From Mycolicibacterium tusciae JS617 (GTDB lineage: Bacteria > Actinomycetota > Actinomycetes > Mycobacteriales > Mycobacteriaceae): 64,000 nt of DNA. Within the stretch, counting starts at the first letter, position 1, and the number at the start of each line of letters is the position of its first letter. A model generated the notes under the pieces. It was not told the DNA's origin, did not search any database, and saw only the letters and a program-made list of their open reading frames with translations. Positions 26,847-30,171 of the stretch are shown piece by piece. Location of the stretch: contig NZ_KI912270.1 of assembly GCF_000243415.2 (NCBI RefSeq), forward strand, positions 6,343,837 to 6,407,836, read 5' to 3'. The position numbers and the translations under genes were made by a program.

Positions 26847-28679
26847 TTGTGTACTGCGTGCGAATGGGCCCCGCACTTCGCTGCATTCGGGTCGAGTAGC
26901 CGCGCGCATCTGACGCGTCGCACCCTGCTGACGGCCGCCGCCGTCACGGTTGCGGTGACAGCGACCAGCTCGTGTTCGGTGCAGCCCGGATCCCAGGCGC
27001 CGGAGACGTCACCCGGATCCGGCGCCGATTCCCCGCCTGCCGACTTCGTGTTCCGCAACGGTCCGATCTACACGGTCTCGACCGCGGCGCCATGGGCCGA
27101 GGCCGTCGCCGTCACGGGCAATGCGATCAGCTACGTCGGCGACGAAGCGGGTGCGATGGCGCTGGCCGGACCAGACACCAAGGTCATCGACCTCAAGGGC
27201 CGGCTGCTCATGCCCGGCTTCGTCGAAGGACAAATCCATCCATTCCTCGGGGCGTTTCTGACCACGGGTGTCGATCTGCAGGTGCCGACGGGCACCGATG
27301 CGCTGGCCGCGATCGCGAAGTACGCAAAGGAAAATCCCGACGGTCCAATTCGCGGATTCGGTTGGCGCGTCGACATGTTCGGCCCCGAGGGGCCCACCCG
27401 CACCGACCTCGACAAGGTGCTGCCGGACCGTCCCGGCTTCTTCTTCGCCATCGACGGACACAGCCTGTGGGCCAATAGCAAGGCCCTGGAGAAGGCAGGC
27501 ATCACCCGCGAATCCGAGGACCCGATCCCCGGATTCAGCTACTACGTGCGCGACGAGAACGGCGAGCCCACCGGATACGTACTGGAAGTCAACGCCGTCC
27601 TCGGACTGGTCAACGCCATCGAACCGATCTCACCGGAGACAATGGGAAGCCTCATGGAGGCGTGGCTGCCGAAGGCTTCGGCGGCCGGCATCACGTCGGT
27701 GTTCGACGCGGGCGTGCCACCCATCGGCGATGACCAGGGTGCATTGATCGAGCTCTACGCCGATACGGAGGCCAAGGGGGCGCTACCGTTCCGCGTCGTC
27801 GCCTCCTACAGCGTGAAATCCGCACCCGTCGACGACGCGGTGGCCAGGCTGACCGATATCCGCAACCGGATCTCGACCGAGCTGGTCCAGGTCGGAGCGG
27901 TCAAGGTGATCGGCGACGGGACGCAGGGCGGGTACACCGCCTGGCTCATCGAGCCCTACGCCGACAAACCCGACTCCACCGGCGCATCCCCGTTCACCGA
28001 GGACCAATGGCATCAGCTGGCCGGTGAAGTCGACGCCGCCGGTTTCGACGTGCACGTCCACGCGTGTGGTGAACGCACCGCGCGGACGGCTCTGGATTCC
28101 ATCGAGCGCGCCATCGCCGCGAACCCGCCCCGCGACCGCAGACACACCGTTGCCCATCTGGTCTACGTCCAGGATCCCGACAGCCGGCGGTTCGGCGAGC
28201 TCGGCGTCGTCGCCCAGTTCTCCGCGAACTGGATGTCGGCCGACCCCGACACCGTGCTGAACATGGCGGCGCGCTACGGGCGGCCCCGCCAGGACCTCTT
28301 CTATCGCACGCAGGACGTGCTGCGCTCCGGTGGCCGCATCTCGCTGGGCACCGACTGGCCCGCGGCGGGCTACTTCTCGACCTACAAACCGCTGGATTCG
28401 ATCCAGATCGGGGTGACGCGCCAGCTCATCGGGAAGCCCGACGCCGAGGTGCTGGCGCCCGCCGACCAGCGGCTGTCGGTGGCCGAGGCGGTGCACGCCA
28501 ACACCCTCGGCGCTGCCTACCAGATCAGGTTGGATGCTTTGGTGGGCTCGCTGGAGGTCGGCAAGCTCGCCGACTTGATCGTGCTCGACAAGAACATCCT
28601 GGAGATCGATCCGCACGACATTCACCAGGCGAAGGTCACGATGACCATGATGAATGGCCAGGTCCGCCACGAGGGCTGA
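26847..28679 (+). CDS. Tat-exported lipoprotein amidohydrolase (Amidohydro_3 / YtcJ-like)
   Basis: A 610-residue metal-dependent hydrolase-fold protein with a Tat-type signal (TRRTLL at residues 23-28) and a lipobox-like TSSC at Cys43, so it is probably an exported lipoprotein. Amidohydrolase features include DVHVHACGERTA, HTVAHLVY and SLGTDWPAAG near the C-terminus. At the usual first metal motif HxH it has Gln129-Ile-His131 (VEGQIHPF), so one expected His ligand is missing. The TTG start follows a GGGGGG stretch by about 6 nt. It has no counterpart at this place in M. tuberculosis and looks like an accessory gene. Substrate unknown. Confidence 0.82.
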   Translation: MCTACEWAPHFAAFGSSSRAHLTRRTLLTAAAVTVAVTATSSCSVQPGSQAPETSPGSGADSPPADFVFRNGPIYTVSTAAPWAEAVAVTGNAISYVGDEAGAMALAGPDTKVIDLKGRLLMPGFVEGQIHPFLGAFLTTGVDLQVPTGTDALAAIAKYAKENPDGPIRGFGWRVDMFGPEGPTRTDLDKVLPDRPGFFFAIDGHSLWANSKALEKAGITRESEDPIPGFSYYVRDENGEPTGYVLEVNAVLGLVNAIEPISPETMGSLMEAWLPKASAAGITSVFDAGVPPIGDDQGALIELYADTEAKGALPFRVVASYSVKSAPVDDAVARLTDIRNRISTELVQVGAVKVIGDGTQGGYTAWLIEPYADKPDSTGASPFTEDQWHQLAGEVDAAGFDVHVHACGERTARTALDSIERAIAANPPRDRRHTVAHLVYVQDPDSRRFGELGVVAQFSANWMSADPDTVLNMAARYGRPRQDLFYRTQDVLRSGGRISLGTDWPAAGYFSTYKPLDSIQIGVTRQLIGKPDAEVLAPADQRLSVAEAVHANTLGAAYQIRLDALVGSLEVGKLADLIVLDKNILEIDPHDIHQAKVTMTMMNGQVRHEG

Positions 28680-28692
28680 GTGTCAGCGCCGC

Positions 28693-28749
28693 CGAACGTG
28701 AGCTCGTGTCCGAAGAATCGCCGATTCTTCGAGCACAACTTCACGTTCG
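28693..28749. repeat. 57-bp palindromic repeat, copy A
   Basis: Outer arms CGAACGTGA (28693-28701) and TCACGTTCG (28741-28749), inner arms CGAAGAATCG (28711-28720) and CGATTCTTCG (28722-28731) around one central base. All are symmetric about 28721. It lies between the amidohydrolase stop and the DUF559 gene start and matches copy B at 49 of 57 positions. Confidence 0.92.
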
Positions 28750-28785
28750 ACGGAACCAGCCGGGTTGCCCCACCGTCGAATCGAT

Positions 28786-29637
28786 GTGCAGCCTTTCCTC
28801 GGCACCGAGGCGCTCGCCGCCGGTGTGGTCACTCGGTATCAGCTCGCGACGCGTTACGACGCGCTCTTCCGCAACGTCTACGTGCCCAAGGGGCAGGCGG
28901 TGACACCGATAGACAGGGCGATCGGAGCCTGGCTGTGGTCGGGCAGGCGCGCGACGGCCGCTGGACTTTCCGCGGCCGCGCTCCACGGATGTCGTTGGAT
29001 CGACGCGAGATTGCCCGCCGAGCTCAACCAAGCCAGCAGACACAGGACGACGGGCATCGTGCTCCACAGCGACACCCTTCATGAGGACGAACGTTGCCTC
29101 GTCAAGGGTGTACCGGTGACGACGGCCGCCCGCACGGCCTTCGACCTCGGCCGTCGCCCCGGTACCGAGAGAGCCGTGATCCGAATCGACGCGCTGACAC
29201 AGGCAACCCGCCTCAAGGCAGAAGCAGTCGACGCCCTTGTCGAGCGCCACCGCGGCGCCCGCGGGCTGGTCAACCTGCGCAAAGCCCTTGAGCTTTCCGA
29301 CCCCGGCGCGGAGTCACCCCAGGAGACCCGGACGCGCCTGGTCCTGACCGCCGCAGGCTTGCGGCCCACGCACACACAGATCGACGTGTTCGACCGATAT
29401 GACCACGTCGGGCGTATCGACATGGGGTATCTCACCTGGAAAGTCGGCGTCGAGTACGACGGCCATCAACACTGGACCGACCCATTGGTACGCAGCCGGG
29501 ACATCGAACGTCAGGCGGAGCTCGAGGCGCTCGGATGGCGGATTGTGCGGGTGAACGCAGATATGTTGCGGTACCGGAAGCCGATCATCGTCGCGCGTAC
29601 CCGTGCCGCGCTGCGGGCAGCGGGCGCAGCTGTCTGA
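28786..29637 (+). CDS. AbiEi-like / DUF559 (Vsr-type) endonuclease-like protein
   Basis: A 283-residue protein with two parts. The N-terminal half (VQPFLGTEALAAGVVTRYQL and the following region ending GLSAAALHGCRW) resembles the winged-helix start of AbiEi-type antitoxin proteins. The C-terminal part has the DUF559/Vsr-like nuclease pattern: GRIDMGYLTWKVGVEYDGHQ, then a helix with RSRDIERQAELEALGW and IVRVNADML. Asp and Glu in these strands could bind metal. I prefer the GTG at 28786 over a TTG at 28765. The gene is bracketed by two 57-bp palindromic repeats, the second beginning at the base after its stop. No partner toxin or methylase is adjacent. Nuclease activity is inferred. Confidence 0.75.
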   Translation: MQPFLGTEALAAGVVTRYQLATRYDALFRNVYVPKGQAVTPIDRAIGAWLWSGRRATAAGLSAAALHGCRWIDARLPAELNQASRHRTTGIVLHSDTLHEDERCLVKGVPVTTAARTAFDLGRRPGTERAVIRIDALTQATRLKAEAVDALVERHRGARGLVNLRKALELSDPGAESPQETRTRLVLTAAGLRPTHTQIDVFDRYDHVGRIDMGYLTWKVGVEYDGHQHWTDPLVRSRDIERQAELEALGWRIVRVNADMLRYRKPIIVARTRAALRAAGAAV

Positions 29638-29694
29638 CGAACGTGAGCTTGTGTTCGTAGAATTACCGCTTCTTCGAACCCAACTTCACGTTCG
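29638..29694. repeat. 57-bp palindromic repeat, copy B
   Basis: Same outer arms as copy A (CGAACGTGA at 29638-29646, TCACGTTCG at 29686-29694); the inner stem is degraded. It starts at the base after the DUF559 stop codon, and its outer right arm, read on the minus strand, supplies the TGA stop of the neighbouring RDD gene. Confidence 0.92.
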
Positions 29695-30171
29695 CCGCAC
29701 CACCGCGGTGTTGGTGAAGCGATCCTGATAGCCGCGCAGATCGCTGTCGGTGAACAGTGCCGGGATGACGAAGAACACGAGGATCCCGCGCACGGTCGCG
29801 CGGCCGAGCCCGACGTGAATCCGGTTGTCGATGGAGGCCACGCGCAGGCCGAGTGCCAACTGGCCCGGGGTGAAGCCGAAGAGTCGCACCGAAATGATGC
29901 CGAGCACGACCCAGACCACCGCGATCGACGAGGAACCCCACGGCGAGTACAGGAAGGTCTGCTGGTTCATCAGCCCGAGCGCGACAACAAGCCCGACAAG
30001 CCCGTAGGCGATGAACCAGTCGATCAGCAGCGCAGCGATGCGCCTACCGAACCCAGCAATCGAACCGGGGCCGGATTCGGGCAAACCAAGGCGCTGACCG
30101 GGATATTCGTTGAGTCCTGATTCGCTGCCCGGTTCGGACCCCGACAGCCAGGACCCCAATGCGCGGGCCAT
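29686..30171 (-). CDS. RDD family membrane protein next to glnA1
   Basis: A 161-residue protein with three hydrophobic helices (about residues 44-66, 79-100 and 126-145) and the RDD signature RRIAALLIDWF with Arg and Asp. The segment TPGQLALGLRVASID is also typical. RDD proteins are conserved beside glnA1 in mycobacteria; their role is not well defined, though transport has been suggested for some. The last residues VVRRT and the stop codon come partly from the 57-bp repeat copy B, so the natural C-terminus may have been altered by that repeat. Confidence 0.85.
   Translation of the reverse strand: MARALGSWLSGSEPGSESGLNEYPGQRLGLPESGPGSIAGFGRRIAALLIDWFIAYGLVGLVVALGLMNQQTFLYSPWGSSSIAVVWVVLGIISVRLFGFTPGQLALGLRVASIDNRIHVGLGRATVRGILVFFVIPALFTDSDLRGYQDRFTNTAVVRRT

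Follow-up and report, generated by a model that had tools for sequence, protein, structure and literature searches.

The closest described system to the locus examined here is the REPtron, in which a TnpA-REP (RAYT) gene lies beside its cognate REP palindromes and, according to the available text of PMC8266576, behaves more like a housekeeping gene than like a transposon. PMC6006769 reports that, of the subclasses of these HUH enzymes, its sampled Actinobacteridae have none but the IS200-type 1.1; a palindrome-bracketed AbiEi-Vsr system, if real, would fill a gap in this group. The protein studied in this work also resembles members of three other well-recognized groups, the AbiEi antitoxins of the AbiE system, the Vsr very-short-patch repair endonucleases together with the MTES_1575 REases, and the EDxHD or Vsr-like homing endonucleases, such as I-Bth0305I. 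The gene of a homing endonuclease sits within the recognition site of its enzyme, and the empty allele has that site intact.

The locus lies in the window, that is, the whole stretch of 64,000 nucleotides of Mycolicibacterium tusciae JS617 DNA that we analysed. It shares with the REPtron, as the available text of PMC8266576 presents it, a resident and housekeeping-like gene beside palindromes, cognate copies dispersed mostly in intergenic regions, and co-evolution of protein and palindrome. Compared with the same text, however, it differs in several respects. Its enzyme combines a Vsr-fold nuclease with an AbiEi-like domain, in place of the HUH transposase of the REPtron; the REPtron palindrome spans 20-50 nt after GTAG, whereas most palindromes here are 56-57 bp long and have CGA/TCG ends; the gene is closely framed by two direct copies, unlike in the REPtron; and there are 1-10 copies per genome and class, counted by exact pattern, rather than hundreds. 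We found no description of a palindrome-bracketed AbiEi-Vsr system in the open-access literature searched.

Results

The gene and its two palindromes are listed in Table 1. The two window copies are identical at 49 of 57 positions by pairwise comparison, and their outer arms, CGAACGTGA and TCACGTTCG, are the same in both. A half-site probe finds four matches in the window, all inside copies A and B, where 100 shuffles average 0.00, and the next-best 57-mer match to copy A elsewhere in the window reaches 32/57. The bracketing of the gene by this pair is not due to chance. Single-strand DNA folding gives a long inner stem for copy A and a broken one for copy B, and the TGA of the gene stands immediately 5' of copy B, while the last two codons and the stop of the convergent RDD gene come from the final 9 bp of that copy. 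On re-measurement, the arm identity, the match between the copies, the exact abutment and the unequal wear of the inner stems all agree with what a sequence-only reading of this DNA had reported. Several homologues begin with MxPF, so the true start of the gene may lie downstream of the one annotated, as entered in the table.

Table 1. Positions of the features of the palindrome-bracketed unit in the window
Feature	Positions	Strand	Remarks
Palindrome A, 57 bp, upstream copy, class CGAACGTGA	28693..28749	.	ssDNA hairpin -17.4 kcal/mol, z -3.97
AbiEi-like / Vsr-DUF559 fusion gene	28765..29637	+	possible true start GTG 28786 (homologues)
AbiEi-like N-terminal region, residues 36-169	28870..29271	+	
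Vsr-fold nuclease domain, residues 182-288	29308..29628	+	E187, D219 and H236 invariant in 28 aligned proteins
Palindrome B, 57 bp, downstream copy, abuts the gene's stop codon	29638..29694	.	-14.9 kcal/mol, z -5.36
Final two codons plus stop of the convergent RDD gene (CGA ACG TGA), within palindrome B	29686..29694	-	

The window protein matches the Pfam MTES_1575/DUF559 and AbiEi models, and its predicted structure aligns with Vsr and AbiEi folds across nearly the full length, the closest structures including the homing endonuclease I-Bth0305I (3r3p) as well as AbiEi. It has a Vsr fold with conserved acidic and His residues, as expected of a Vsr-like or DUF559-MTES_1575 nuclease, and it is not an HUH-superfamily tyrosine transposase. 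Model matches and fold comparison thus bear out the earlier assignment of an AbiEi-like N-terminus and a C-terminus similar to Vsr and homing endonucleases. The protein shares its N-terminal region with the AbiEi antitoxin by both models and structure but has that region fused to a nuclease domain; it shares the C-terminal fold and a Pfam match with Vsr and the MTES_1575 REase, as these are covered in the available text of PMC3710099, but adds the AbiEi-like domain and flanking palindromes. Unlike the locus of an EDxHD or Vsr-like homing endonuclease, this one has intact palindromes on both sides and further copies elsewhere. Of the 198 genomes sampled from the genus, 195 have homologues at E 1e-30. 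Purifying selection acts on the gene, with dN/dS of 0.08-0.24 across the 25 closest usable pairs, which were taken from 56 equal-length pairs of 80-97% identity and are not mutually independent.

We fetched 150 homologous loci, placed 147 with full flanks and retained 111 after dropping identical gene segments. The match between the 57-mers on the A and B sides beats every one of 111 shuffled controls in 89 of the 111, at similar spacing, and 22 fail this two-sided test; 98 pass if a strong one-sided palindrome is accepted, and 13 have no convincing palindrome on either side. When lengths of 55-58 bp are tried, with ties assigned to 57, the best palindrome is 57 bp long in 95/111 units on the A side and 96/111 on the B side. 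At least 17 of 24 arm pairs are formed in 68 (A) and 75 (B) of the 111, compared with 1 of 222 shuffled flanks. The gap between the end of copy A and the aligned gene start is about 15-30 bp in most loci, and copy B begins within about 10 bp of the aligned gene end; among the exceptions, gaps reach about 90 bp and overlaps about 20 bp. The copies of the unit in genome G133 (locus L054) have mutually inverted centres (ATCGCCGAT and ATCGGCGAT) with their arms in direct register, a possible trace of hairpin processing. These results support the earlier proposal that gene and palindrome belong together. The possibility, raised with that proposal, that orthologous loci carry the gene without any repeats holds for a minority, 13/111 by the loosest rule.

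The sequence of the palindrome varies between loci and matches within a locus. The classes seen include CGAACGTGA, CGAACGTTCCTTACC, CGAAACTGA, CGAACCTGA, GTGTGAAGAAGATCGCGAGA, CGAACGTCGACTTGTTG, CGAGTGGCCAGTTATTGCACG and others, and the copies of one unit in G105 are 56 bp long. Inspection by eye, with no shuffled control, suggests the same layout, with yet other sequences, at around 14 of 30 loci in further genera and families of the order. Among the nine Pfam matches in the window's own genome, bracketing is clear at L013, L015 and L016; at L019 and L020 there are palindromes or partial repeats, and at L012 and L014 these are one-sided; the flanks of L017 and L018 were checked and contain no convincing palindrome. 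L013 (G000:C4:385141) is a very distant DUF559 paralogue (26% identity) between two exact 60-bp repeats that contain an unrelated palindrome. An exact DnaA box, TTATCCACA, occurs in the upstream flank of 15 of the 111 units (L180, L183, L193, L201, L209, L282, L290 and eight others) and in none of the downstream flanks; it lies 42-67 nt 5' of the aligned gene start, at the centre of the palindrome chosen by the finder in 7 of the 15, and DnaA control or a link with replication is possible.

Palindrome distance rises with protein distance in the 61 of 111 units that have clear palindromes on both sides, the rest being left out for weaker palindromes (Mantel r 0.636; largest of 2000 permutations 0.249). 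Linked descent alone gives some such correlation, so a test in trans is more telling. We compared palindrome classes over 198 genomes, with unit genomes defined from 70 loci in 63 genomes, so that "other" genomes may hold further units. Palindromes of the CGAACGTTCCTTACC class are found in 3 of the 198, with 10 copies each in G066 and G068 and 2 in G144. G066 and G068, with eight solos each, are the only CGAACGTTCCTTACC-class unit genomes among the 63 examined, and the homologue examined in G144 is not bracketed by a CGAACGTTCCTTACC palindrome. These two genomes seem not to be closely related, as their RDD proteins are 60% identical, while their unit proteins are 76% identical. In the CGAACGTTCC class, 2/2 unit genomes carry solos, 8 in each, compared with 1/196 of the others. 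Extra solos are present in 9/11 unit genomes of the CGAAACTGA class against 13/187 others (Fisher p 2e-8) and in 6/7 of the CGAACGTGA class against 61/191 others (p 0.007), p-values that are optimistic because the genomes are related. Cognate palindromes are thus dispersed in the genome of the resident gene, with exceptions: solos are missing from two unit genomes of the CGAAACTGA class and from one of the CGAACGTGA class. Solos in genomes without the unit may be leftovers, copies belonging to other units, or independent of the protein. The class match over 198 genomes contradicts the possibility that the repeat is simply common genome-wide with no link to DUF559 genes.

Within the CGAACGTGA class, 83.7% of arm cells are paired compared with 81.8% in shuffled columns, and doubly changed cells number 43 compared with 30.2, both measures lying above at least 495 of 500 shuffles. 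Strict selection for a hairpin is rejected, since this covariation is modest, and recognition of the duplex by a dimer is about as likely as recognition of a hairpin.

Palindrome contexts were read in part of 68 genomes, for which the per-genome counts are complete. At 71 of 79 palindrome places there is no homologue within 1.2 kb; for seven solo places the scan covered 400 bp on each side, and the matches in the window's own genome do not lie near these seven. One own-genome match (L011/L023, three mismatches) lies within coding sequence and was discounted as a chance hit. Flanking frames are clear at 82 of the 93 places found, 43 convergent, 33 tandem and 6 divergent, unit copies included, whereas 2216 random window points, mostly intragenic, give 237, 1803 and 176, respectively. 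The flanks of 90 copies prefer CGC|palindrome|GCG, with CGC outside each end, and show no excess of target-site duplications longer than 2 bp over shuffled flanks. One clean empty site, GAAGGCC-CG-GCAG in G146 against GAAGGCC-[CGAAAC...GTTTCG]-GCAG in G000, shows that solo L378 is an insertion at CG with a 2-bp duplication. The other six of the seven solos tested gave no clean empty junction, and two of these six are shared with G170.

The site beside the RDD gene was inspected in 70 of 104 genomes with a match, a few loci ending early at contig ends. Full units are present in G000, G133, G040, G192, G028 (with a broken gene) and G042. In G098 the site holds a distant homologue, 43% identical, whose palindrome is of another type; in G171 there is a short piece of homologous sequence. 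Solos of several classes occur by score in G068, G153, G052, G087 and G109 and by eye in G079, G102 and, as a worn copy, G002, and another palindrome type is found in G065, G107 and G122. In the remaining inspected sites the scan found no palindrome or there is other sequence; the site is empty, without palindrome, in the close relative G170. G192 and G028 (unit) and G153 (solo) share one insertion point. Further palindrome types, AAACCGACG... and GTTGATnCAGAACT..., occur at the RDD site in L110, L111, L115, L139 and L146, the latter type also beside the distant homologue in G098. By eye, L165, L167, L168 and L173, from four genomes, have just 3' of the RDD stop a box like TCGAAC-N4-GTTCGA, the mycobacterial SOS box, and the possible start of a 13E12/DUF222-type gene. 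A second site lies between the convergent ends of an apparent histidine kinase gene and an apparent FKBP-type gene. It was searched in 25 genomes, three of them readable on one side only; G000 has a unit there with repeats identical over 62 bp, and among the 22 readable relatives G102, G192, G153, G068 and G011 have solos of four classes. Both convergent sites thus hold units, solos of different classes, or neither, depending on the species. Between two groups of genomes, DUF559 identity (72-77%) is higher than RDD identity (57-62%), and within one group the two are about equal; the unit at the RDD site may have descended vertically or been transferred.

Discussion

We consider it probable that this locus is a REPtron-like pair, in which a resident AbiEi-Vsr gene with its own flanking 57-bp palindromes is accompanied by dispersed solo copies that the protein would help to spread. 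The sequence-only reading had proposed a unit that spreads as REP-associated transposases or homing nucleases do. The likeness to REP-associated transposases fits best, because genomes with a unit are enriched in solos of its class, and the dispersal of palindromes is supported. The mobility of the whole cassette is less so, since both flanks are common to 21 of 25 close pairs and all six members of the window class that were checked adjoin the RDD gene. Purifying selection, mostly shared flanks and the constant RDD neighbour make the gene look resident and the palindromes scattered. Cargo of a plasmid or phage was also considered and rejected, as we found no relative in the plasmid collection (E 1e-20) or the phage collection (E 1e-10).

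The strongest competitor, which we nevertheless regard as unlikely, takes the whole unit as a selfish mover, either a homing endonuclease or a one-gene transposon, with the solos as recombination scars comparable to solo LTRs. Direct repeats at L189, L013 and L382 that are exact over 58-62 bp, the solo of G153 at the insertion point of the unit in G192 and G028, the presence of I-Bth0305I among the closest structures and the patchy units at the RDD site, missing in G170, would all suit such an element. However, the genomes examined carry one unit per class with up to 8 solos, the paralogues in the window's own genome are strongly diverged, with 26-71% identity to the window protein, and both the shared flanks and the search of plasmids and phages speak against a mover. 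Rather improbable in our judgement is that the palindrome is an operator at which the AbiEi-like domain represses its own promoter through copy A, with copy B and the solos as further binding sites or passive repeats, and with the nuclease acting elsewhere, for example in defence. The AbiEi similarity and the modest pairing covariation, which suits the half-sites of a dimer, are consistent with this explanation, and the DnaA boxes, found upstream and never downstream, point to regulation at copy A; but it leaves unexplained why copy B stands at the stop codon in most units and why class-matched solos are dispersed, often at convergent gene ends.

It is very improbable that the repeats have no functional connection with the nuclease gene and are simply dispersed palindromes or terminators, an alternative that the earlier reading had kept. 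Most copies are indeed solo and about half lie between convergent genes, but bracketing, geometry, sequence co-variation and class match largely contradict it, and the window copies have neither a T-tract terminator nor an Rfam match near the cut-off. As candidates in their own right, a terminator was rejected for want of a T-tract at 28500-29900, and a structured RNA because the sole Rfam match scores 16.8 bits, far under the cut-off of 40. An integron attC site was considered for the 57-bp palindrome length only and set aside by eye. Integron gene cassettes have attC core sites and an integrase.

In the REPtron-like pair that we favour, the protein would recognise two half-sites of its own palindrome, as a duplex or as an extruded hairpin, and a Vsr-type nick or cut at the palindrome would then help to copy palindromes into CG-containing sites behind genes, approximately CGC-CG-GCG, with a 2-bp CG duplication. 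The gene itself would mostly stay in place, and recombination between the direct copies could delete it, with a solo left behind. Binding, cutting or spreading of the palindrome by the protein is an inference. By its enzyme and its repeat tag the locus falls outside the REPtrons, whose palindromes of 20-50 nt adjoin a GTAG (or CGTC) tag that is not seen here, and our claim is that it may work like one. What sets the system apart is that it lacks the enzyme that defines the REPtron, its nearest kin; its proposed way of working is not new.

A broader proposal, to which we give even chances, is that the AbiEi-Vsr (DUF559) proteins of Mycobacteriales form a second, HUH-independent class of palindrome-dispersing enzymes. 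Each would recognise a lineage-specific 57-bp palindrome and copy it by a Vsr-type nick or cut to CG sites behind genes, with specificity changing together in protein and palindrome, and would thereby fill the role played in other phyla by REP transposases. If this is true, unrelated enzymes have given rise to REP-like systems on two or more occasions, and a highly prevalent mycobacterial protein family gains a proposed function and one cognate DNA site per gene. The many natural protein-palindrome pairs of varied specificity would then make both the recognition code and the dispersal mechanism directly testable.
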